Shown here: in pieces, positions 1 through 10,477 of the stretch
Position numbering within the stretch: position 1 is the first letter of the stretch
Layout: each line of letters starts with the position of its first letter
DNA from: an uncultured Erysipelotrichaceae bacterium
GTDB lineage: Bacteria; Bacillota_I; Bacilli_A; RF39; UBA660
Length of the DNA: 38,209 bases
NCBI GenBank assembly: GCA_902788975.1
Contig: CADAMI010000004.1
Coordinates: 1-38,209 of the forward strand
Direction of reading: 5' to 3'
Translations under genes and position numbers: made by a program
The notes under the pieces: model-generated
Told to the model about the DNA's origin: nothing
The model's input: only the letters and a program-made list of their open reading frames with translations
Database searches by the model: none

Positions 1-1329
1 AGTTTCTACACTTATAATATTATTAAACTTATCATCATATAAAGAGTCTTGTTTTCTTTTTAATTCAGCTATCTTTAAATTAAGTTCATCAATCTTTTTT
101 AATTTATCTTGTTTAGGATCAACATATTCACTTTTAATGATATTTTCAAATTCTTCTTTATCATTAATATATTGATTAGCCATACTACTTAATTTATCAT
201 AAACTGTATTTTCTAGCTTTGTATAGTTAATATAATGAGAAAAGCATATATCATACTTACTAAACTTACGATAGTTATTGCAATTCATTGTAACTCTATC
301 TCTTTTCTTATCATAACTAATACTCATTCTAGCACCACAATCTTTACAAAAAACTAAATCAGATAAGACATAATCAACATTTCTTCGGTCAGGATTATAA
401 GTGTTTGAAGAATCTTTAATACTTTGTGCTATTTCAAATGTTTTCCTATCAACAAGTGGTTCGTGTGCATTTTCTTTAATGCACCATTCACTTTCAGGAA
501 CACTCTTTCTTTTCTTTATCTTATAATTGACTTTTTGAAATTTGTGTTGAATTAAATCTCCAATATAAACTCTATTTTTAATAATATTACTGATAGATGT
601 GTGTTTCCATATTTCAGGATGGTCAAATTTATTTAATTTAGAACCAGAGTATTTATACATAATTGGTGTTGGTAATTCTTCTCTTGTTAGTATCTCTGCA
701 ATCTGGCCACTACCATAACCTGCTACATATAAATCAAATATTCTTTTAACAACAGGGGCAGTTTCAGGATCAGGCACTAATTTATGCTTATCTTCAGGTT
801 CTCTCATATAACCATAAGGTGCAGCACTACCACAGAATTTACCATCTTTTTTCATTTGAAGTAAGTTTGAACGAACTTTTTTAGAAATATCTTTTGCATA
901 CATATCATTCATACTTAATCTAAATGGCATCATATCAGAGCCACTTGTTTCAAAAAAAGTATCTATATCATCATTTACTGCAATATATCTGACATCATTT
1001 TTAGGAAAATAAGTTTCAACATAATAACCAGTCATTATATGGTCACGACCTAATCTTGATAAGTCTTTTGTTATAACCATATTTATTTTTTCATTCTCAA
1101 TGTCATTTAACATTCTTTTAAACTCTGGACGCTCAAAATTTGTTCCTGTATAACCATCATCAACATAAATATCAACTGCAACTAAGTTTTGTGCTTTTAA
1201 ATAACCAATTAATAGACTTCTTTGATTAGTGACACTTTCTGATTCCATATCATCACCATCTTCACGAGATAGTCTTATATAAATGGCTATTTTAAATATT
1301 GTATTGTCTATCGCATATTTACTATACAC
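1..1329 (-). CDS. Large serine recombinase/integrase (C-terminus cut by window edge)
   Basis: A site-specific recombinase of the large serine family, inferred to integrate and excise the surrounding element. The 443 visible residues start at a GTG codon (1327-1329) preceded by AAAGGAG at good spacing. Residues about 13-25 hold the catalytic motif YIRLSRED (Ser21 is the presumed nucleophile), and the TKDLSRLGRD motif follows near residue 90. The central recombinase domain and a zinc ribbon (CKDCG, then CNNY and a later Cys) come next, followed by a Lys/Glu-rich coiled coil entering the window edge. About 100 more residues are expected to the left. The overall look is that of the TnpX/TndX-type transposon resolvases rather than small resolvases. 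It lies two bases after the small upstream ORF, so the two are probably cotranscribed. Confidence 0.93.
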   Translation of the reverse strand, partial: MYSKYAIDNTIFKIAIYIRLSREDGDDMESESVTNQRSLLIGYLKAQNLVAVDIYVDDGYTGTNFERPEFKRMLNDIENEKINMVITKDLSRLGRDHIMTGYYVETYFPKNDVRYIAVNDDIDTFFETSGSDMMPFRLSMNDMYAKDISKKVRSNLLQMKKDGKFCGSAAPYGYMREPEDKHKLVPDPETAPVVKRIFDLYVAGYGSGQIAEILTREELPTPIMYKYSGSKLNKFDHPEIWKHTSISNIIKNRVYIGDLIQHKFQKVNYKIKKRKSVPESEWCIKENAHEPLVDRKTFEIAQSIKDSSNTYNPDRRNVDYVLSDLVFCKDCGARMSISYDKKRDRVTMNCNNYRKFSKYDICFSHYINYTKLENTVYDKLSSMANQYINDKEEFENIIKSEYVDPKQDKLKKIDELNLKIAELKRKQDSLYDDKFNNIISVET

Positions 1330-1331
1330 TT

Positions 1332-1514
1332 CTAACTCCTTTCGTTAGACAACACTTTCACTTTATTAGTTGATTCAATTATACTATTTTTTGAGTCCTT
1401 TTTAAATACTTTTAATGAATTTTTATGAGCTATATAATATTTATATATACAACTCTTTAATACTTCTTTTAGATCACAACCATTACTATCATAAAACTCT
1501 AGTGTTTCATACAT
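1332..1514 (-). CDS. Small hypothetical protein upstream of the recombinase
   Basis: A 60-residue ORF beginning with MYETLEFYDSNG, with a strong GGAGG site six to seven bases before the ATG. Its stop is two bases before the GTG start of the recombinase, which suggests cotranscription and coupling. It is basic at the C-terminal half (many Lys) and has no recognisable domain or membrane segment. Small proteins in this position next to large serine recombinases are sometimes recombination directionality factors; that is only a positional suggestion here. Confidence 0.6.
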   Translation of the reverse strand: MYETLEFYDSNGCDLKEVLKSCIYKYYIAHKNSLKVFKKDSKNSIIESTNKVKVLSNERS

Positions 1515-1615
1515 GATTATTCCTCCACAATGAATTTTATGTGTAATAGTTTATAAAAATTACTATTCTTCATAAATTATCACAACCTTTCTTTTAAATT
1601 TTTTTATTATTTAAT

Positions 1616-2035
1616 TTATCTAAAATCTTTCAATATTTCATCTATTTCTTTTTGTTGTTCTTCACTCATTGGTATTGCTTCTTCTCGTGTGCCATTCCAA
1701 ACTTCTACGCCATCTGGATCATATCTTATATGAGGAGCACTCTTTCCATTTATTAGTTCTTCTTGATTATCAGATATATAAGTTACCGTGATAAAACTTT
1801 GTATTTTACCATTTGCAATATAAGAATTAAGATAACCTTTAATAAATACTTTAGTTCCTTTAACAAAAAAATCCTTATACATTGTATAAAGATTCCTATT
1901 AATATTTAAACTAGAATATACTTTCCTTTTATCATATTTAAGAGTAATTAAACCAAATTTAATATAATCTTGATTATTATCTGTAACATTATTTATAGTT
2001 CCAGATATAATAATTTCATTTAAATCAATTTCCAT
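1616..2035 (-). CDS. SSB-like OB-fold protein of the mobile element
   Basis: A 139-residue protein whose first 90 residues look like an OB-fold single-strand DNA-binding domain: an opening strand (IIISGTINNV), a middle segment ending in KGTKVFIKGYL, and a following strand (IQSFITVTYIS) in the places found in SSB/PriB-like proteins. The C-terminal tail is unusual (YDPDGVEVWNGTREEAIPM then an acidic helix) and lacks the standard acidic DDDIPF tip. A GGAAG site precedes the ATG. Element-borne SSBs usually protect single-stranded DNA during transfer or replication; that role is inferred. Confidence 0.65.
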   Translation of the reverse strand: MEIDLNEIIISGTINNVTDNNQDYIKFGLITLKYDKRKVYSSLNINRNLYTMYKDFFVKGTKVFIKGYLNSYIANGKIQSFITVTYISDNQEELINGKSAPHIRYDPDGVEVWNGTREEAIPMSEEQQKEIDEILKDFR

Positions 2036-2096
2036 TTTTAACTTCCTTTCAATTAATTAATTTATAATTTAAATTATTTAAATAAATTTTAAATTT

Positions 2097-2134
2097 ATAT
2101 TATTTATTAATATTATTTATTATATTATTTATTC
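2097..2134. repeat. Tandem 13-bp AT-only repeat (iteron-like)
   Basis: Two exact head-to-tail copies of ATATTATTTATTA (2097-2109, 2110-2122) are followed by a 12-base copy differing at the last base (2123-2134). They lie in a roughly 140-base, almost pure AT gap between the SSB-like gene and a replication-type winged-helix gene. Iterons or a DNA-unwinding region are possible, but low-complexity AT sequence can produce such repeats by chance. Confidence 0.45.
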
Positions 2135-2176
2135 TGTTAGAAGATATTCGCTATATTCACTAGCAACATCTTGCGT

Positions 2177-2458
2177 TTACCCATAGAATATATCTGCTAA
2201 ATATATTTTTCTTTCATTAGGTTCTAGTTCAACTCTAATATAGTTTTTTCTTTTTAATGAAGTTATGCAACTAGTAATTGTTCTTTTAGATACTTTCATA
2301 ATATTACCTAAACGCTTATTACTAGCATAACAAAAACCATCTTGCATAGTTAGAGTAGTTATTAAACCCATCAGTACTTTAGAAGTAGAAGATATATCTT
2401 CATCTAATAAAACTACCATAGGTAATTCAACATATTTTAAATTTCTTAAACTATCCAT
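2177..2458 (-). CDS. Winged-helix (HTH_36 type) replication/regulatory protein
   Basis: A 93-residue protein closely resembling the HTH_36 domain found at the N-terminus of plasmid replication initiators and DnaD-like proteins: a start such as KYVELPMVVLLDED, then GFCYASNKRLGNIMKVSKRTITSCI as the helix-turn-helix, and a wing ending NYIRVELEPNERKIYL. An AAAGGAG site lies seven to eight bases before the ATG. It is only the DNA-binding domain; no catalytic part follows. It sits directly after a structured leader ending in an intrinsic terminator, so its expression is probably attenuated. The role in replication control of the element is inferred. Confidence 0.7.
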   Translation of the reverse strand: MDSLRNLKYVELPMVVLLDEDISSTSKVLMGLITTLTMQDGFCYASNKRLGNIMKVSKRTITSCITSLKRKNYIRVELEPNERKIYLADIFYG

Positions 2459-2491
2459 ATTATCAAACTCCTTTCTTTAATTTTTAGACAT

Positions 2492-2520
2492 TAAAAAACT
2501 TGTAAAAATATCTTACAAGT
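2492..2520 (-). terminator. Intrinsic terminator in the leader of the HTH_36 gene
   Basis: A perfect 8-bp stem ACTTGTAA (2498-2505) / TTACAAGT (2513-2520) with a 7-base loop. On the minus strand it is followed at once by a U-run (2492-2497). It lies 34 bases before the start codon of the winged-helix gene, so it would stop leader transcripts before that gene. Confidence 0.75.
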
Positions 2521-2536
2521 CATACTGATATAAAAT

Positions 2537-2650
2537 GAACTAAGGCGGGTATTAACCCTGAGACTTTATTTTAAATCCTTTCTCTAGGATTGAAGCAGTT
2601 CAGCCTTTCGGCTAGGTACTAATATAAATCTCCGAACATTTACTGTACCT
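2537..2650 (-). ncRNA. Structured leader RNA candidate (unidentified)
   Basis: Reading the minus strand from 2650, one sees a hairpin closed by AGGTAC/GTACCT (2645-2650 with 2614-2619), an AGCC-GAAA-GGCT hairpin (2602-2613), then an outer stem GAACT/AGTTC (2597-2601 with 2537-2541). The outer stem encloses two hairpins: AATCCT/AGGATT (2586-2591 with 2574-2579) and GGGT/ACCC (2547-2558). A terminator follows at 2498-2520. The region is less AT-rich than its surroundings, and no ORF uses it. The layout resembles a riboswitch or plasmid-type attenuator controlling the winged-helix gene downstream. No known family was recognised by eye. Confidence 0.6.
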
Positions 2651-2673
2651 TATTTACTAGCGATTATTCTATT

Positions 2674-2940
2674 CTAGCAAATTGTGTATTCATATAGTCC
2701 ATTGTCGTATTCATTAAACTTAATATAATTATATTTTTCTAATAGTTTTAAGTTCTTTCTGAATCCAACATTTTTCAAACCTTTGATCTGACCTTGTATT
2801 CTACCAATATTCACATGATTGATAGTTCTATCAAATCCTTCTGAATATAGATAAGCATATATATCTTTAGCTTCAAATGTGATATTTTTATCTTTCCATA
2901 TTCTATGGTTTGTCATATCTAGATGTTTAATTTTACTCAT
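2674..2940 (-). CDS. Small winged-helix DNA-binding protein
   Basis: An 88-residue protein that looks like a winged helix: a Trp-Lys-Asp opening (NHRIWKDKNITFEAKDIYAYLY), a recognition region (HVNIGRIQGQIKGLKNVGFRKNLKLL) and a wing (YIKFNEYDNGLYEYTIC). It is similar in plan to the HTH_36 protein downstream and may be a paralogous regulator or replication factor. The chosen ATG starts MSKIKHLDM; a three-codon minigene (ATGAATGAGTAA) overlaps this start and lies closer to the AAGGAG site, which could reduce initiation. It is transcribed from a strong promoter at 3007-3035 that is overlooked by a palindromic operator. Confidence 0.6.
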   Translation of the reverse strand: MSKIKHLDMTNHRIWKDKNITFEAKDIYAYLYSEGFDRTINHVNIGRIQGQIKGLKNVGFRKNLKLLEKYNYIKFNEYDNGLYEYTIC

Positions 2941-2977
2941 TCATATCGCTCTCTCCTTTCTTCAAATCTGCTATTTT

Positions 2978-2993
2978 GAGTACATCAGTACTC
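2978..2993. promoter_or_regulatory. Palindromic operator GAGTAC-N4-GTACTC
   Basis: A perfect 6+6 inverted repeat separated by ATCA, lying just downstream of the minus-strand promoter's -10 element. A matching half-site GTACTC occurs at 3074-3079, between the -35 and -10 of the divergent promoter. This is the expected pattern for the binding site of the adjacent XRE repressor; the pairing of protein and site is inferred. Confidence 0.65.
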
Positions 2994-3006
2994 GTTTTCG
3001 ATTTCA

Positions 3007-3035
3007 ATATTACATCATAATTACTAACTTGTCAA
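3007..3035 (-). promoter_or_regulatory. Promoter for the winged-helix operon
   Basis: On the minus strand, TTGACA (3030-3035), 17 bases, then TAATAT (3007-3012). The -35 is perfect and the -10 near-consensus for the housekeeping sigma factor. It drives the genes at 2940 and below. Confidence 0.75.
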
Positions 3036-3064
3036 TACTTTTTTATTCAATTTTAATAAATGTG

Positions 3065-3093
3065 TTGACTTTTGTACTCATTTAGTGTATGAT
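3065..3093 (+). promoter_or_regulatory. Promoter for the XRE repressor operon
   Basis: TTGACT (3065-3070), 17 bases, TATGAT (3088-3093), followed 20 bases later by the repressor start codon. A GTACTC half-site lies between the two boxes, consistent with autoregulation. Confidence 0.75.
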
Positions 3094-3113
3094 TAATGTG
3101 TGAGGTGAAGAAA

Positions 3114-3614
3114 ATGTCTAGTAGTAAACCTATCGGTGAAGTAATAGCCGAAGCTAGAGAAATTGCTAAACTTTCTCAAAGACAATTAGCAAAACTTGCT
3201 GGAATTAATAGTTCTGGTCTATCTAAAATAGAAGCTGGTGAAAGGGATCCTAGTCCAAAGATATTAAGAAAGATAAGTAAATACATAGATGTTAATTATA
3301 ATGATTTAATGTATAAAATGGGATTAGGTATTGAAGTTAGTCCATTAAATCCTTTTATTAAAGATTATTATTCAAATCTAAAAGGTGATGAACTAAATGA
3401 AGCTGAAATTAATGTTTTAGGTAATAAACAAAATCTAGAAAAATTAGTTTTATCTTGTGAAGAAAAATTAAAAAATGAAAACATATTAGAACAAGAAAAG
3501 GATTTATTATTACATACTATTGAAGATACAAATTATCAAATTAATACACAAAATGAAATTATTAATTTAATTCAAAGTTTAAAAGTAAAGGAGAGAAATA
3601 AAAATGCGAAATAG
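3114..3614 (+). CDS. XRE-family transcriptional repressor
   Basis: A 166-residue protein with an N-terminal XRE helix-turn-helix (about residues 6-64: AEAREIAKLSQRQLAKLAGI, SGLSKIEAGERDPSPKIL) and a Lys/Glu-rich, probably coiled-coil C-terminal half. The ATG at 3114 is preferred over one at 3096 because GAGGTG lies at ideal distance before it. It is transcribed divergently from the recombinase-side genes, with a palindrome between, as in phage and ICE master switches. Its last 11 bases overlap the next gene. It probably represses the leftward operon and itself. Confidence 0.88.
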   Translation: MSSSKPIGEVIAEAREIAKLSQRQLAKLAGINSSGLSKIEAGERDPSPKILRKISKYIDVNYNDLMYKMGLGIEVSPLNPFIKDYYSNLKGDELNEAEINVLGNKQNLEKLVLSCEEKLKNENILEQEKDLLLHTIEDTNYQINTQNEIINLIQSLKVKERNKNAK

Positions 3615-4032
3615 AAAAATCTTTAAAATATTAATACCATCATTAACAATATTCTTTATATTAGGATTTATCTTGTCTCAAGCAATTCAAACCGATCACT
3701 ATTACAATATGTTTTGGGCAGGGTTAGCATTTCTATCATGTGGAATATTTTTAGATATTTATTATTGGAGTAAATTAGGATTAGATGTTGATAAAAATGA
3801 ATCAAAAATGATTAAAAGAATATTTGATGATAATACTGCATTACTTGGAGTATTTTATGGAACATTAATATGTATAGTTACATTCTTTGATACATTTAAT
3901 CATGACATAATGAAAAACAATTATGTCATAATAGGTATGTTTATGATGACATTAGAATTTGAATTATTTACATATTTATCTATTGGAAATGCTAGAAAAG
4001 ATACAGTAAAATTATTAAAAGGTAGTAAATAA
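3604..4032 (+). CDS. Four-helix membrane protein of unknown function
   Basis: A 142-residue protein with four hydrophobic segments (about residues 8-27, 35-54, 79-98 and 104-126) and short basic ends. It overlaps the repressor gene by 11 bases, and its ribosome site (AAGGAGAG) lies inside that gene, so the two are cotranscribed and translationally coupled. No family was recognised. The coupling to a repressor suggests a constitutive maintenance, exclusion or signal-sensing role for the element, which is only positional inference. Confidence 0.7.
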   Translation: MRNRKIFKILIPSLTIFFILGFILSQAIQTDHYYNMFWAGLAFLSCGIFLDIYYWSKLGLDVDKNESKMIKRIFDDNTALLGVFYGTLICIVTFFDTFNHDIMKNNYVIIGMFMMTLEFELFTYLSIGNARKDTVKLLKGSK

Positions 4033-4042
4033 TTCAATAAAA

Positions 4043-4085
4043 AAATAACCTTTTACTTTTCGTTAGATTAGGTATTAGGTTATTT
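4043..4085 (+). terminator. Possible terminator after the membrane protein gene
   Basis: An 8-bp inverted repeat AAATAACC (4043-4050) / GGTTATTT (4078-4085) with a 27-base loop lies just after the stop codon. The long loop and short U-run make it a weak terminator candidate. Confidence 0.35.
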
Positions 4086-4137
4086 CCATATAAGAATACG
4101 TGGCACGTTTTGCGAGTATGCTCCATTGAGATGAATC

Positions 4138-4167
4138 GAACCATCATTAATTTGATAGTTCTTTTTT
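4138..4167 (+). terminator. Intrinsic terminator
   Basis: The stem GAACCATCA / TGATAGTTC (4138-4146 with 4153-4161, one mismatch) is followed directly by six T residues (4162-4167). It closes the rightward repressor operon. Confidence 0.65.
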
Positions 4168-4171
4168 ATAA

Positions 4172-4578
4172 TTAAATTTAAGAACAAACAATGATATAAC
4201 CGATAATAAAAAAATAGATCTAGGAGTATCACTTTATAAAATAGCTAGTTATAGTAACTTAAATACTTATCAAACTAAAAATCTTATTAAAAATGGTACA
4301 CTAAGTCTAACTTTAATGGTAGTTTTGATGAATATTATAGTAATATATTATTTATTACTAAAAATGATTCAAGACCACTAACTACAAAAGAATTATATAG
4401 TTCGTTAAATGATATGCGTATAAGCAATAATAAATATTATAAAATTAAACAAAATTATTATAATAAAATATTTGTACATAATATGTTATTAAATAGTGCA
4501 CTCAACCATATCAAATATGAAAATGAGCGTATAGAAAAAGAAATCGAATATAGTATGAGAGACAATCTCGATTACTAA
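4172..4578 (+). pseudogene. Frameshifted gene remnant
   Basis: Two overlapping open stretches in different frames look like pieces of one protein. The first (from 4172) reads on through NNDITDNKKIDLGVSLYKIA to LIKNG near 4296. The second, open from 4291, continues with SNFNGSFDEYYSNILFITKN and ends at TAA 4576-4578 after an acidic helix (ENERIEKEIEYSMRDNLDY). Joined, they give about 135 residues with no start codon or ribosome site, directly after a terminator. It is therefore the 3' part of a lost gene with a frameshift near 4291-4316. No family was recognised; a former mobilization or replication gene is possible. Confidence 0.55.
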
Positions 4579-4613
4579 TCGGTTTCTTTTTTTAGTTTTG
4601 TTAATATAATTTA

Positions 4614-4913
4614 TTATTTAGTTCTTTTTTTAATCTTTGTAGGATTTTGTTGATTATTATTTTGTTTTTTTCTACTTTTATTGAATTCATATATATTTGC
4701 AATTGTTAGACCACTAGAAGCTGCTAATAATGAAAGTAATACATAGTCAGCTGTATGCAAGCCATCTCTATTTAATGTTTCTTCTTGTTGATATTTTATT
4801 TCATCATTGTTGGTTTCACTTAAATTATTTTCGTTTTTACATCCCGTTAAACTTAACATTATGGTTGATGCTAAAGCTAATGCTTGTAATTTTCTTTTAT
4901 AGTTGTCGTTCAT
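4614..4913 (-). CDS. Small lipoprotein with C-terminal membrane helix
   Basis: A 99-residue protein with a signal peptide and lipobox (LSLTGCKNE, Cys25), a short polar stretch, then a second hydrophobic segment at about residues 56-76 (YVLLSLLAASSGLTIANIYE) followed by a very basic tail. A lipid anchor plus a transmembrane helix within 100 residues is unusual and would place about 30 residues outside the cell, with the Lys/Arg/Gln tail inside. The ribosome site is AAAGGGGA. It stands alone on the minus strand between the remnant and the oriT region. Function unknown. Confidence 0.65.
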   Translation of the reverse strand: MNDNYKRKLQALALASTIMLSLTGCKNENNLSETNNDEIKYQQEETLNRDGLHTADYVLLSLLAASSGLTIANIYEFNKSRKKQNNNQQNPTKIKKRTK

Positions 4914-5120
4914 TTTAAAATTTCCCCTTTCTTACAAAAATAAAAAATATTTCTTCGTTAATGGCTTAATATTTTAGCATAAAGGCAAACAAAAGTCAAG
5001 TTTTTTGTTCACTTTTTGCTATTATGTATGAGAAACGTTTTTTTCTATATAAATTATTTTTCTATATAAATTATTATTAATTATTGATAAATTATTAAAT
5101 CTAGTTTATAATTAAATTAC

Positions 5121-5190
5121 AAAGAAGAACTTAAGGTCGTATATCGTATCTTTATCGCTCGTGAAAGTGGCGATAGTATTCTTCTTTTTA
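5121..5190 (+). other. Long hairpin with internal stem and U-tract
   Basis: The gene-free stretch 4914-5352 is AT-rich to about 5120 with nothing recognised, then becomes a series of hairpins. This one has a perfect 9-bp outer stem AAAGAAGAA (5121-5129) / TTCTTCTTT (5179-5187), enclosing TATCGC/GCGATA (5153-5158 with 5170-5175), and a plus-strand T-rich tail after the stem. It could be a terminator, a small RNA with its own terminator, or part of the transfer origin. Confidence 0.45.
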
Positions 5191-5216
5191 TTTAAACTTG
5201 ATTTAAATAAAAAGGC

Positions 5217-5280
5217 AACAATAACTACTTACGAATAGTTTGTAGTTATGTTGTTATCGGTTTCAAAAGGGTGTCCCTTT
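5217..5280. repeat. Two consecutive hairpins next to oriT
   Basis: The first hairpin pairs ATAACTAC (5221-5228) with GTAGTTAT (5242-5249), extended by AACA/TGTT around a bulge. The second is AAAGGG-TGT-CCCTTT (5266-5280). They directly precede the oriT hairpin and may be relaxase-accessory or single-strand-origin structures. Confidence 0.5.
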
Positions 5281-5281
5281 G

Positions 5282-5325
5282 CACACTATTCCTAGTTGGC
5301 TATAAGCCAACTTGGTAGTGTGTTA
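5282..5325 (+). other. oriT: Origin of transfer (oriT), MobV/pMV158 type
   Basis: Outer arms CACACTA (5282-5288) and TAGTGTG (5316-5322) enclose a perfect inner stem AGTTGGCT/AGCCAACT (5294-5301 with 5305-5312, loop ATA). The right arm is followed by TTA, giving TAGTGTG/TTA, which is the known nick sequence of the pMV158 relaxase MobM. The predicted nick is between 5322 and 5323 on the plus strand. A MobV relaxase gene is present in the same element, which supports the assignment. Unlike in pMV158, the site is not next to the relaxase start but about 3.5 kb from it, beyond the 712-residue protein gene. Confidence 0.8.
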
Positions 5326-5352
5326 CTAAAATGTCATTTTGGATTTTGAATT

Positions 5353-7491
5353 TTATTTATTAGTTTTAGTATATAGTTTTATATGTTCTTTTTTCTTTTG
5401 CTCAATTAATTCATATATTCTATCTATAATTGCATCTACTTCTTCACTAGTTACAAAAGTTCTTTCTAATTCTTCAGTAGTTGAAATTATATTTTTCCAA
5501 TTGGGATCATAATAAGAAAAATATAATTCATTCTCATCAATAGTTATATTATTATCCATATTATTGCTAATACTTCTAAAAAACAATTGATGAAATCTAG
5601 GAAAAGTAGTTATTTTATAACTATACTCTGCTCTCTTGAGCGCATTATATACTTGTTGATCAATTTCACTTTCTTTCGGGTAAGATACTTCTTTATTCAT
5701 ATCAAATCCTACAAGTTGTTGTTTTCCTCTTTTATAAAAGAAATATCTTAAAAACTCTTTTAATGCTTCTTTATCCTTTAAAAGTAATGAATTTTCATAA
5801 TTATCAAATTCTATATAGGCATACTTTTCTTTACCTGCAAATGAATCATATGAAATTTTCCTTACAGAAGATGGAATTACAATAGAATTTCCTTGATAGT
5901 ATTTGAAAGCGTGTAAGCCAATCATTTCTAAGCCATCATTTAATGATAATTTTTGAAATTCACTATTGAATAAATTACCACTAATACTTTTTAATGTACT
6001 TGGCATTACTAATTCTTTTTTGTCTTTTATTTCTCTTCTAATATATTTGGAAACTCTTGAAGATAGTATGTCTGAATCAATACTTATTATACCTTCTGGT
6101 AATTTGTAATAAGTAGTATTAATTTCACTTTTTTTCATTAATTGATATAATCTATTAATAGGATGGTTGCAACTAAAATCATCAATAATTGATAGTAACG
6201 ATACAAGTGGCACTAAGTAATCCCATTCAATACCGCTTATATTTGAAAAAATATTTTCAAATTCATTTCTCTCATCATTATCTGTTAAATTTGCTAATAA
6301 TATATTATTAGATAACATTTTTTTAAAGCCATCTTCCTTATCAAAAGATAGTAATAAATTTAGCATATATTTTTTGTAAAGAACATAATCGCCATCATAT
6401 CCTCCCCAATCACCTTTATAATACTCTCTTATTATAGATAAGGCTTGTCTCATATCATTTGAAAAAGTATTATTAAAATAATTGTTTTTACCTAAAATTA
6501 TATTTTGTAACTTATTAAAGATAATGTCTTTATAGTATTCATAACCATAATCATCTTCACGAATTGGAGATTCTCTAAGAAAATCAATATCGCAAGTAAG
6601 AATATTAAATTTTACTTTATATAGATTTTTAATCTGTTCATCTGATACTACATTTCTTCCATATTCATAAAACAAAAGATATTTTTGTTCTAAACTATTA
6701 ATTTTATGTAATAAATCATTTTTATTATCTTTAGTTTTTTCTATATTATTTAATTCTTCTAATTGTGAATCTAGTATTTTAATTTCATTTTTATTTTTAT
6801 ATGCATAAATTTCTAGCCATCTTTCAACTATAGCAATCTTAGTAATTAAATCATCAATTCTATTTACAGTGCTAAGTTCTAAAATAGATGAAGATATAAA
6901 ACATAATCTCTCCCATCTTTTTAATAAAATATCATAATCTTTTCCGCTATTATTAATACTTATAGTTCTTAGATGTGCATCAATTTCTTTTTGAATTGCA
7001 GTTTTTTGTTCTAAAAATATTACTAACGAATTACTTAAATTATTAATTTCATCGGTTAAACAATTCTTATTTCTACGTGGTACTCTTTTCCCTTTTTCTA
7101 ATTCTTTTAATGCAATTAACCTAGTAATTGTTTCTACTTCCATTTTATTAATTTCTAATAAATATATTTTTAGTTTTGTCATTTGAATCATTAATTCTTC
7201 CGATGCTAAATTTAAAAAGTGTTCATCAGTAATGATACTATGAAGAAGTAAATCCACATTCATAATCATATCTTCTTGTAAATTATCAAATTTTAATTCT
7301 CTAGTAGTTATTGTTCTCTTTTGAGATAGAAGTTGTAGATATTGTTCTTTATAAGAATCAATTAAATTAATCTTTTCTATATCGTCCTTATAGTAATCCC
7401 TACCTGGAATTTGTATAATATCTCCAAGATTAATTATTCCGACTTCAACTTCATTAAAAAAAAGTGATTTTAGTTTATTAATAAAATTCAT
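5353..7491 (-). CDS. Large coiled-coil protein with BspA-like LRR segment
   Basis: A 712-residue protein with a strong GGGGGG-type ribosome site. The N-terminal half is helical and rich in Leu/Lys/Glu, with likely coiled coils at about residues 80-290. At about residues 490-560 there are LRR_5/BspA-like repeats (LVMPSTLKSISGNLF; LSLNDGLEMIGLHAF; IVIPSSVRKISYDSF). The C-terminus is a polar helix. There is no signal peptide or membrane helix, so a cytoplasmic protein is expected, although BspA-type repeats are more often on surface proteins. It lies between oriT and the relaxase, 64 bases downstream of the latter, on the same strand. No enzymatic motif was seen. A transfer accessory or defence/anti-defence role is possible but unsupported. 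Confidence 0.75.
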   Translation of the reverse strand: MNFINKLKSLFFNEVEVGIINLGDIIQIPGRDYYKDDIEKINLIDSYKEQYLQLLSQKRTITTRELKFDNLQEDMIMNVDLLLHSIITDEHFLNLASEELMIQMTKLKIYLLEINKMEVETITRLIALKELEKGKRVPRRNKNCLTDEINNLSNSLVIFLEQKTAIQKEIDAHLRTISINNSGKDYDILLKRWERLCFISSSILELSTVNRIDDLITKIAIVERWLEIYAYKNKNEIKILDSQLEELNNIEKTKDNKNDLLHKINSLEQKYLLFYEYGRNVVSDEQIKNLYKVKFNILTCDIDFLRESPIREDDYGYEYYKDIIFNKLQNIILGKNNYFNNTFSNDMRQALSIIREYYKGDWGGYDGDYVLYKKYMLNLLLSFDKEDGFKKMLSNNILLANLTDNDERNEFENIFSNISGIEWDYLVPLVSLLSIIDDFSCNHPINRLYQLMKKSEINTTYYKLPEGIISIDSDILSSRVSKYIRREIKDKKELVMPSTLKSISGNLFNSEFQKLSLNDGLEMIGLHAFKYYQGNSIVIPSSVRKISYDSFAGKEKYAYIEFDNYENSLLLKDKEALKEFLRYFFYKRGKQQLVGFDMNKEVSYPKESEIDQQVYNALKRAEYSYKITTFPRFHQLFFRSISNNMDNNITIDENELYFSYYDPNWKNIISTTEELERTFVTSEEVDAIIDRIYELIEQKKKEHIKLYTKTNK

Positions 7492-7555
7492 GATAATCCC
7501 CCCTTTGACTAATGAGTAATATTATATCATATTTCCTAAAATTTTGCACTTTTTA

Positions 7556-8851
7556 TTATAAAGTCATTTCAAAATCATCTTTATCGTATTCATCTTCATC
7601 ATAATCTCTAACTCGTTCTTTATAATAGTTAGGTGCATCTACATAATCAAATAATTCATCTTGTTTAGTAGTACCTCTTGATATGCCAACCACATCATTC
7701 ATATCAAATTCACGATTATCATAGCAGTCTTTAATTGCATCGGCAGTTTCATCTTTGGTATATTCATTACCTCGCTGCAATAATTTTCTTAAAAATTTCT
7801 TTAATAATTGAAACATATAATTTAATCTAGCTATTAAACTTCTATTTTCTCGTTCTAAATGTTCATTATCTTTTTCAAGTTTTGTAACTTCGTTTTTATA
7901 TTTTTGATTTTCTTTTTCTAGTGATTTATAACTATTAGCATAACCATCAATTTTATTAAACACTGCTTGTAATTTAGGTTGCATATCCATTACTTTTTTA
8001 GATTCTTTAATAACATTATTCATACTATCAAAAGTATCTTTTTTAACCTTAACATAGTCTTTACCTACTAAAAATGATTCTTTGGTAGTTTTCATTTTAT
8101 CTTCAAACTCATTCATTGCTTTATCAAGCCTATCATTTTTAACATTTAATTCTTGATTTAATTTCCTAGTTATTTTTTTATATTCTTTAATTTTAATGTG
8201 TTTATCATCACTGCCTTTAATACCTCTTTCTAAATCATATCCTTTTTCAGTTAGTCTTTTATGATACATATCTTGTAGTTGTGATAATTGTATCTTATCT
8301 TTTATATATTGCTTTTTAGATATGGTATATCTTTCAGTATTAGTTCTATAATCTAGTTTCTTAACTAATGGTATTACTACACAATGAATATGTGGTGTTT
8401 TTTCATCTAAATGGACAGTTGCGTGTAAAACTTGTTCTTTCTTATACCCTAAATCATTATAAACAAACTCCATACAAGTATCAGCCCATTCTTTAATTTG
8501 TTCTCTAGTCATTCCATCAAAGAATTTAGGAGAAGCAGTAAACATTAATTCATCTGCTATACAATTTCTAGAACTATTTAACATATCGTGATATTTCTTT
8601 TGTCTAGATTTTCTTTCAGTTTTCATTCTTTCTTCGTGCTCTCGTTTATATTCTTTTGTTAATTCATCAAAACCTTTTAAATACTTTTCAGCAAGTGGTA
8701 CAAGTTCTATATTATTTTTACTTAATTCTATTTTAATATCTGGATTAGAATTATAAGCTTTCTTTTCTCGTTTATTATGTGATCCTATTTGTGCTAAATC
8801 TTGTGTAGTCATAATAGGTTCACTTCTAAATATTGCATAATTTAAATTCAT
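7556..8851 (-). CDS. MobV-family relaxase (Mob/Pre)
   Basis: A 431-residue plasmid-mobilization relaxase that would nick oriT and pilot the transferred strand. The N-terminal motif GSHNKRE places His25 where the nucleophilic His22 of pMV158 MobM lies, and the metal-binding motif HLDEKTPHIH is at residues 147-156, both diagnostic of the Mob_Pre family. Residues about 190-350 are a long coiled coil, typical for oligomerisation and membrane contact, and the tail is very acidic (YDEDEYDKDDFE). The AAAGGAG site supports the chosen ATG. There are no coupling-protein or secretion genes in the window, so transfer would depend on a helper element. Confidence 0.92.
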   Translation of the reverse strand: MNLNYAIFRSEPIMTTQDLAQIGSHNKREKKAYNSNPDIKIELSKNNIELVPLAEKYLKGFDELTKEYKREHEERMKTERKSRQKKYHDMLNSSRNCIADELMFTASPKFFDGMTREQIKEWADTCMEFVYNDLGYKKEQVLHATVHLDEKTPHIHCVVIPLVKKLDYRTNTERYTISKKQYIKDKIQLSQLQDMYHKRLTEKGYDLERGIKGSDDKHIKIKEYKKITRKLNQELNVKNDRLDKAMNEFEDKMKTTKESFLVGKDYVKVKKDTFDSMNNVIKESKKVMDMQPKLQAVFNKIDGYANSYKSLEKENQKYKNEVTKLEKDNEHLERENRSLIARLNYMFQLLKKFLRKLLQRGNEYTKDETADAIKDCYDNREFDMNDVVGISRGTTKQDELFDYVDAPNYYKERVRDYDEDEYDKDDFEMTL

Positions 8852-8884
8852 ATATCATTTCTCCTTTCGTTTCGTTTTATACAA

Positions 8885-8912
8885 CAAAAAAGATATGTCG
8901 TTAAACATACCT
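8885..8912 (-). terminator. Terminator after the glycosylase-like gene
   Basis: On the minus strand the 8-bp stem AGGTATGT / ACATATCT (one G-U pair; 8891-8898 with 8905-8912) is followed by a U-run (8885-8890). It starts at the base after the stop codon of the upstream gene and separates it from the relaxase. Confidence 0.65.
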
Positions 8913-9905
8913 CTAATTACATATCTCATCATATTTTTTATTATAATGACAATAATTTCTTATCTTACATCTTTCACAATTAGGGTTTTCCCCACATATA
9001 TTGGCAGACCTTAATAAACAGAATTGTTGAATTATTGATTCTACTACGATTTCATCACAATTATTAAGTTTTGCTATTCTTTTAATAATATTTAATACTT
9101 GTTGTTCTGTAGCATTAGCATTTTCAACAACACCTAATCTATGACTACCAAATAATCTTTCTAATTGAGAACTCTTTTTACAAGTATTAACACCAACTCG
9201 TTTTAAATAATCATAAGCGAAAGCTCGTCCAACTTGTATCATCTTATATTTTCCATCATTAAACATATTAGCAATATCATTCGGTGTTTCTTTATTAACA
9301 AAGTTATCTAAACTACCATAATCTTTTTCTATTTTCTCTAATACCATTATATTTTTAGATAATGCTTTCATTTGATTATTAATCATTGGATTAGTACAAT
9401 GAATTATTTTTAATTTATTAACTAAAATATTCGGATCAATTACCTTTAAATAATTCTTATTATAGTTATGAAATATCTCATCAATAGCATCCATATTTTC
9501 TCTAATATTATTATCTCCCCATCTATGATTTGATAAAAGAGATATAATTAATGCTTTTAGGTGTTCTTCAAAAGTATATTTTTTACCTTTCTTTCTTAAT
9601 TTAACATTATTAACTAAATCCTTAATATCGCTCATATAATCATAATTAATATAATCCATACTTTCTTTAATAAGAGGTAGTATTTCTTTTAAATCATTAT
9701 CATCTAATATCGTTATCTTACTTACCATATCATAATTAGGGTTATATATTGTATGATTATTAATACAATCCTTTAATATTTCAACAATTTCTTCATTAGA
9801 TAAATACTTTACTCTTTCAATAGGAAATATAACCTTATTCACTTTAACATACTTTATCAGCAAAGGTATTAACTCATCATTTTTGAAAATTTGCTCATTT
9901 TTCAT
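8913..9905 (-). CDS. Endonuclease III-like HhH/Fe-S protein lacking catalytic residues
   Basis: A 330-residue protein (from ATG 9905; a GTG at 9920 is an alternative). The C-terminal part resembles the HhH-GPD base-excision glycosylase superfamily. A hairpin-like segment (MIQVGRAFAYDYLKRVG) aligns with the GVGRKTA hairpin of endonuclease III, and the C-terminus has a Cys-x5-Cys-x2-Cys-x5-Cys motif (Cys304, 310, 313, 319) like its 4Fe-4S cluster, one residue shorter in the first gap. The catalytic Lys of the hairpin is replaced by Ala, and the catalytic Asp position reads KKSSQ. The first 150 residues are helical and unassigned. It probably binds DNA; glycosylase activity is doubtful. It is the last gene before the spoIVA junction. 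Confidence 0.65.
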   Translation of the reverse strand: MKNEQIFKNDELIPLLIKYVKVNKVIFPIERVKYLSNEEIVEILKDCINNHTIYNPNYDMVSKITILDDNDLKEILPLIKESMDYINYDYMSDIKDLVNNVKLRKKGKKYTFEEHLKALIISLLSNHRWGDNNIRENMDAIDEIFHNYNKNYLKVIDPNILVNKLKIIHCTNPMINNQMKALSKNIMVLEKIEKDYGSLDNFVNKETPNDIANMFNDGKYKMIQVGRAFAYDYLKRVGVNTCKKSSQLERLFGSHRLGVVENANATEQQVLNIIKRIAKLNNCDEIVVESIIQQFCLLRSANICGENPNCERCKIRNYCHYNKKYDEICN

Positions 9906-10008
9906 AAAAAAATATCTCACTTTCTTAATTTTAGTCTTTAACTAATAAAGTGAAATATTGTCTTTATCCCTTATTTTATGGGCATTTATTAATTTTTCTT
10001 TTTGGGTA

Positions 10009-10389
10009 TCACATATTCAAGGACACCCAAGGAGTCATTACATATCTTGGACCATTTTCATCGTCTACCCCTTTTGCATCGTTAATAACATATCCAACAC
10101 AATCAATCATTTTAATATTGGCACTAAAATCATCTATCATAATTTTAGCAGCATTGGCAGGTACAAATTTAGGCTCAGTTGTCATAATCATTTTTCCACT
10201 AGCCGCTTGAGGTAATTCATCTAATGCCCTTTTTCTCTCAAATTCATCTTGAATATTTGGCACTACTAAATTTTCCATAAATCTACGAATAAAAGTTGAT
10301 TTACCAGTTCTTACAGCCCCAACAACACCTAAATATATATCCCCACCTGTACGCTTAGCAATATTTTTAATAACCTCTATTTTTTCCAT
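10009..10389 (-). pseudogene. spoIVA: spoIVA 5' fragment, interrupted by the mobile element
   Basis: Residues 1-121 match the N-terminus of SpoIVA, the ATPase that polymerises into the basement layer of the spore coat on the forespore surface. The opening RTGGDIYLGVVGAVRTGKST contains the Walker A (residues 24-32), followed by DELPQAASGKMIMTTEPKFVP, DCVGYV and ENGPRYVMTPW. After Trp121 the family sequence is lost and the ORF ends five codons later in element DNA. A full SpoIVA is about 490 residues, so some 370 codons are missing and should lie left of the window on the same strand. The AGAGAGG ribosome site and a sigma-E-like promoter are kept. Whether the gene is dead or restored by excision cannot be told from the window. 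Confidence 0.88.
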
Positions 10390-10410
10390 ATAAAACCTCT
10401 CTTCTAGTTA

Positions 10411-10438
10411 ATATTATGTAAAAGCCCAGTCATTATTC
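10411..10438 (-). promoter_or_regulatory. Possible sigma-E-type promoter of spoIVA
   Basis: On the minus strand GAATAAT (10432-10438), 13 bases, CATAATAT (10411-10418) resembles the mother-cell sigma-E consensus (KMATATT / CATACAAT). spoIVA is sigma-E dependent in Bacillus subtilis. The match is imperfect and judged by eye. Confidence 0.4.
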
Positions 10439-10477
10439 AAAAAAAAAGAAATAAATTAATACATACTTAATTTATTT
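10439..10477 (-). terminator. Terminator between the 10.5-kb gene and spoIVA
   Basis: A perfect 11-bp stem AAATAAATTAA (10449-10459) / TTAATTTATTT (10467-10477) followed on the minus strand by a nine-base U-run. It ends transcripts from the membrane-anchored protein gene. Confidence 0.75.

Follow-up and report, generated by a model that had tools for sequence, protein, structure and literature searches.

The window analysed here, a 38,209-nucleotide stretch that corresponds to contig C4 (positions 1-38209) of the draft genome G000 (1.23 Mb, 71% complete), carries the beginning of the sporulation gene spoIVA, which is cut short by a mobile element. The question raised by this locus is whether the insertion inactivates the gene or whether the element is removed during sporulation, as skin is from sigK. 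The minus-strand open reading frame (ORF) at 10389-10009 matched the SpoIVA ATPase profile (PF09547, positions 1 to 129) and departed into unrelated sequence after TGG at 10029-10027, codon 121 (Trp), bearing out the original prediction of a SpoIVA N terminus that switches after Trp121. The remaining codons, expected beyond the left end of the window, were found on the correct strand and with a matching core on another contig of G000, where they occupy the end of C6 (39414-39848, minus strand) and are preceded by the last 63 amino acids of a serine recombinase that enters from the contig end. Alignment with the complete relative in G058 places the ends of C4 and C6 65 bp apart inside the recombinase gene and gives a length of about 10.36 kb for the intervening element (10,029 + 65 + 262). 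The coding region is thus split into two parts on the same strand, and joining them at TGG gave TPW-YSEPIPF in frame and restored a 489-aa frame. No second intact spoIVA was found in the 71% complete assembly of G000.

We examined 386 genomes belonging to the same family; a SpoIVA match was present in 341, and 25 of the 341 had spoIVA cut at the Trp codon. Element sequence was read on both sides of the cut in 18 of these genomes and on one side in three (G318, G153, and G419), while in the other four (G008, G205, G255, and G354) the contigs were broken exactly at TGG. G235 and G057 were left out of the count of 25, and five further candidates (G346, G218, G331, G263, and G015) were rejected, being either contig ends or uninterrupted at the Trp codon. 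Since 24 further genomes have spoIVA cut at this codon, neither chance nor misassembly accounts for the split, and the split of spoIVA within Trp121 is confirmed. Most congeners of the interrupted genomes had an intact spoIVA, so that the uninterrupted site, which the original prediction proposed to search for as attB, is present in related genomes.

A comparison of the junctions in more than 20 genomes showed that TGG comprises the only bases common to both. The 5' junction consists of ACTCCTTGG followed by GTGTCCTTGAATATGTGATACC, and the 3' junction of GGTATCACGAAAACAGGTCATAC followed by TGGTATAGC. The outer octamer GTGATACC recurs inverted as GGTATCAC at the opposite end of the element on C6, and the two ends of the element together make up an imperfect palindrome, GGTATCAC-N15-TGG-N14-GTGATACC, a layout that we take to be the usual form of a serine-integrase attP. 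Two arm classes with identical outer octamers were present across the genomes, and attB lies in the Trp codon of the conserved TPW/Y motif of spoIVA. As read from the sequence, the insertion is site specific, with an att structure and an exact frame after rejoining, and the element has its own site-specific serine recombinase together with the att arms (Table 1).

Table 1. Features of the interrupted spoIVA locus in the window
Positions	Strand	Feature	Evidence
1..10026	.	Intervening element, portion in window (then ~65-bp assembly gap and 262 bp on C6)	Contig-end alignment
1..1329	-	Large serine recombinase, first 443 codons; Resolvase, Recombinase, Zn-ribbon	PF00239, PF07508, PF13408; C-terminal 63 aa on C6
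1332..1514	-	60-aa ORF directly before recombinase; candidate directionality factor	Homologues before 25/30 clade recombinases (pattern search)
1534..1563	-	Predicted sigma-E-like promoter, GTAATTTT-N14-CATAAAAT	Conserved block; 14/16 consensus positions
1616..2035	-	139-aa element protein	No Pfam/NCBIfam match
2177..2458	-	HTH_36 protein, possibly replication-related	PF13730, E 1.6e-8
2674..2940	-	88-aa element protein without a family match	Elements of G378 and G438 have related ORFs
3096..3614	+	HTH_3 regulator, divergently transcribed	PF01381, E 2.3e-14
5353..7491	-	712-aa protein with BspA-type leucine-rich repeat stretch; cargo	PF13306, E 7.7e-8
7556..8851	-	MobV family relaxase	PF01076, E 3.2e-30; NF041497 above curated cut-off
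8913..9920	-	335-aa protein, C-terminal four-cysteine pattern, adjoins spoIVA 5' junction	Retained in the elements of G378 and G438
10005..10026	-	Element arm, spoIVA 5' side, GTGTCCTTGAATATGTGATACC	Outer octamer GTGATACC; conserved across genomes
10027..10029	-	TGG, crossover core lies here	Junctions compared in >20 genomes
10027..10389	-	spoIVA 5' part, codons 1-121, last codon Trp	PF09547 1-129, E 6.4e-56; sequence

An independent scan of a named genome collection identified 29 loci with recombinases of the clade (at least 60% identical), mostly from rabbit and ruminant gut Bacilli with one labelled Tissierellia, and all 29 abut the spoIVA site, 27 of them continuing into the 3' part and two stopping at or just past TGG. 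Recombinases of 43% identity or less were sited outside spoIVA. One truncated clade recombinase (L161/L085, G014:C24) was found on a 4.1-kb contig ending inside the gene, in a genome whose spoIVA is intact; the element may have been excised there, or the population may be mixed or the contig wrongly binned. With the exception of this genome, the clade is tied exclusively to a single codon in everything searched.

As predicted, the DNA to the left of the spoIVA 5' part is a mobilizable element with a serine recombinase on the same strand at its far side: it combines a MobV relaxase scoring above the curated cut-off with a large serine recombinase carrying the expected domains. A Pfam scan of 10 element proteins of the window detected no phage structural domains, and we saw no sign in the sequence of a prophage origin. 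The first reading can thus be refined, in that the element is a MobV-type mobilizable element that moves horizontally, with no evident prophage remnant. The relaxase has been lost in some relatives, and the recombinase matched the CcrB and XisF models, far under their cut-offs. The 335-aa protein at 8913-9920 had no match in Pfam, NCBIfam, or PDB; its cysteine pattern, CGENPNCERCKIRNYC, resembles the iron-sulphur site of DNA glycosylases, and remnants of it remain in reduced elements (G223). In another spoIVA element (L136:1190-11640), the main cargo is one 2740-aa protein that is possibly surface exposed.

The region before the recombinase contains two features that bear on its control. The 60-aa ORF was located at 25 of the 30 clade loci by pattern search, with shortened versions in the smallest elements, and had no NCBIfam match. 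Wider-family recombinases carry a different small ORF at the same position, and the 60-aa ORF is therefore probably a recombinase accessory; we infer that its product acts as the recombination directionality factor (RDF). Nearly every sampled wider-family recombinase (L162-L211) had a coupled ORF of 45-65 aa upstream, belonging to two or more sequence types (MDKYKINFIF... and MVKYKVNLKF...), which is possibly a general partner or directionality factor. The second feature, GTAATTTT-N14-CATAAAAT or a variant, precedes the small ORF and is conserved between elements with 60-70% recombinase identity. The B. subtilis sigma-E consensus is GKMATATT plus CATACAMT, and we required a match at 12 or more of its 16 positions. 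This threshold was reached in 19 of 23 clade regions compared with 12 of 43 control recombinases (28%) and 13-15% of shuffles, the clade counts not being independent because the sequences are related. The upstream regions of spoIVA itself reached 12/16 in 18 of 27 cases, and the best match in the window element was the site listed in Table 1. The lengths and spacing of the sigma-E elements agree with those published (PMC517825).

Several assemblies carried signs of reversibility. In G008 and G255, two contigs meet precisely within the 3-bp core; in G205, one contig runs through the unoccupied site and shares 141 bp, beginning at TGG, with the next contig; and at L147, a 3,496-bp contig with a complete 3.3-kb element ends 77 bp past the start of TGG. 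Under the assembler settings that we assume, breaks at the core are the expected de Bruijn graph branches if empty and occupied sites coexist in a sample, which they suggest, and two strains would produce the same picture. No match to the combined attP pattern of a circular form was obtained in the 386 genomes. Six matches to this pattern in viral contigs were rejected as chance, since none carried such a recombinase. Viral contigs held only recombinases of 36% identity or less. Overall, reversible insertion of the element is strongly supported.

The elements are also transferred. Between hosts in three genera, the recombinases had a pS of 0.000, whereas the spoIVA 3' parts there had pS values of 0.41-0.79; recombinases without synonymous differences next to diverged host spoIVA genes show that the element moves between species. 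Reduced elements of about 3.3-3.6 kb (L147, L132, and G301) consisted of the att arms, the recombinase, at least the core of the small ORF, and one cargo gene, a Fic-like or DUF4143-like ATPase (named by inspection), with the relaxase absent. It has been argued that such elements are kept since loss of the excision unit would abolish sporulation (PMC6957869), and the reduced elements, which retain this unit, agree with that argument. When the spoIVA parts of 14 interrupted genomes were rejoined at the core by script, all gave a complete frame of 489-492 aa with zero stops, the length of the intact gene. The pN/pS values of interrupted-intact pairs (0.00-0.19) overlapped with those of intact pairs (0.03-0.19), and, because the insertions are recent, this shows the absence of decay only and proves no use of the gene.

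The interrupted genomes have kept sporulation sigma factors; a loss of the other sporulation genes would have spoken against a developmental role. Of the 25 genomes, all but one had sigma-E-like genes and all but three had full sigma-K-like genes, the two types being distinguished by score alone, and four genomes without spoIVA had neither. In G000, sigK is split as well (L122:2357-4464, G000:C5), with its 3' half starting at NEILMYF directly behind a different serine recombinase of 568 aa, a position that we take to be the skin position of B. subtilis. SpoIIIAA was rejected as a sporulation marker, as it had no real match in the genomes tested, spoIVA-intact ones included. At the order level, our guess is that the hosts are RF39-like; this order comprises predicted spore formers, and related orders show repeated losses of sporulation (PMC10868615).

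Among the coat proteins, SpoIVA acts earliest (PMC517825), and a split spoIVA should therefore block sporulation unless the element leaves in time. We consider it likely (a probability of roughly 0.7) that this is an integrative mobilizable, spoIVA-specific, skin-like element that recombines only at the Trp codon of TPW/Y and is excised in the mother cell during sporulation. The small protein would act as the directionality factor, the element would be excised from the mother-cell chromosome, and the rebuilt spoIVA would allow the base of the spore coat to be laid; the forespore would retain the element, so that the element and sporulation could both persist, and mobilization and integration would spread the element between hosts. 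A skin-like system in spoIVA had been raised as a possibility from the window alone, and it gains support from the in-frame rejoining, the single-codon specificity, the sigma-E-like promoter, and the assembly breaks, with a mother-cell timing of excision that we infer. With the anatomy of the element, the sigma-E-like promoter, the kept sigma factors, and the reduced forms taken together, sporulation would most likely continue by way of mother-cell excision. Against this reading, zero attP circles were assembled in the 386 genomes, and, the insertions being recent and mobile, the intact spoIVA halves are no proof of use of the gene. The promoter is predicted from sequences that are related to each other, with 28% of controls at the same threshold, and two strains could account for coexisting empty and occupied sites.

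The most serious alternative is that spoIVA is merely a conserved integration site, where insertion inactivates sporulation and excision is rare, random, and for transfer only. The presence of identical recombinases in three genera after recent horizontal transfer, the sporadic occurrence with most congeners intact, the mobilization genes, and the repeated loss of sporulation in related orders (PMC10868615) would all fit such a site. We nevertheless regard it as rather unlikely; the sigma-E-like promoter before the small ORF-recombinase pair, the retention of the excision unit in relaxase-free 3.3-3.6-kb elements, the retained sporulation sigma factors, and the repeated insertion in spore genes, with two sites in spoIVA and one in sigK, speak against it. 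That the element of G000 can no longer leave and its spoIVA is a dead relic is very improbable: the 65-bp assembly gap means that the integrity of the recombinase was not fully read, but the recombinase is in frame on either side of the gap, the two att arms are undamaged, as are the two frames, and the pN/pS of spoIVA is that of intact relatives. Lowest of all is the probability, practically nil, of an assembly or binning artefact, which could be suspected because these are draft metagenome assemblies, the window stops inside the recombinase, and the genome is incomplete; it is refuted by independent assemblies, made in different projects and from different animals, that share the junction and in several cases hold the complete element on one contig.

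As a probable skin-like element, the spoIVA insertion belongs to a known kind of system; its target gene and its carrier are new. The skin elements of B. subtilis and C. difficile likewise have a serine recombinase and an exact in-frame junction in a mother-cell gene, and the recombinase (B. subtilis) or the RDF (C. difficile) is under sigma-E control (PMC517825, PMC5025042). However, skin is prophage-like and targets sigK, whereas the spoIVA element is a small MobV mobilizable element that has spread recently between genera and is known here from sequence. SPbeta in spsM, vfbin in spoVFB, vrin in spoVR, and yin in yabG are recombinase-bearing elements that split spore genes, excise, and rebuild them (PMC4191935, PMC10747680), and in SPbeta the 3' gene part is directly preceded by sprA, an arrangement shared by the recombinase of the spoIVA element; these elements are prophages or prophage-like, have other target genes, and, in contrast to the one described here, have had their excision shown by experiment. 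The gin element in gerE of B. cereus is not a prophage and rebuilds a mother-cell gene with a serine recombinase and a separate helper (GirC with GirX) (PMC5595907), but it is 28.6 kb long with three recombinases, compared with 3.3-13.9 kb, one recombinase, and one small coupled ORF for the spoIVA elements. Elements with Ccr-like large serine recombinases share with the spoIVA element the CcrB/XisF resemblance, the MobV relaxase, and the recombinase-coupled small ORF; unlike them, the spoIVA element is confined to a codon of a sporulation gene and has a sigma-E-like promoter before the recombinase pair.

We found no report of spoIVA as an interrupted gene in the literature searched, in which few subscription papers were covered. 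If the excision reading holds, spore formation in a large uncultured gut lineage would ordinarily include programmed DNA excision, as a transferable trait that travels on mobilizable elements and not on old prophages, and automatic annotation may label genomes with such split genes as non-sporulating. The spoIVA elements would also offer compact sets of recombinase, att sites, and partner for testing how directionality factors evolve. A broader proposition, for which we consider the odds to be even, is that spoIVA serves gut Bacilli as a permanent, common docking site for transferable elements with a sigma-E-driven excision unit, with a second recombinase lineage at a second site and, in some genomes, stacking of the elements with each other or with a sigK skin, such that a spore would need more than one programmed DNA rearrangement from mobile elements.

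Further split genes were observed in the same material. The halves of sigK lay apart in G264, G054, G207, G325, G045, and G269 and probably in G040, where the 3' half only was found. Two sigK contigs of G223 (L123 and L124) overlap in a short stretch, TGTATCGAAAACGAA, that starts close to the skin site and is possibly the trace of a mixed sigK allele. In G409 (L141:8260-15340), spoIVA has a second cut, at APSIH/M, made by an element with a 546-aa serine recombinase, so that one gene carries both insertions; the left junction in G249 (L217) is the same as that of this APSIH/M insertion, and in G086 (L218) spoIVA is cut at APSIH/M by a different sequence. Finally, about a dozen related recombinases of approximately 40% identity (L168, L175, L176, L185, L190, L197, L199, L201, L202, L207, L208, and L209) are followed directly by the 3' part of a gene with a LysM domain (VSGDTLW...), an arrangement that points to another recurrent gene-internal target.
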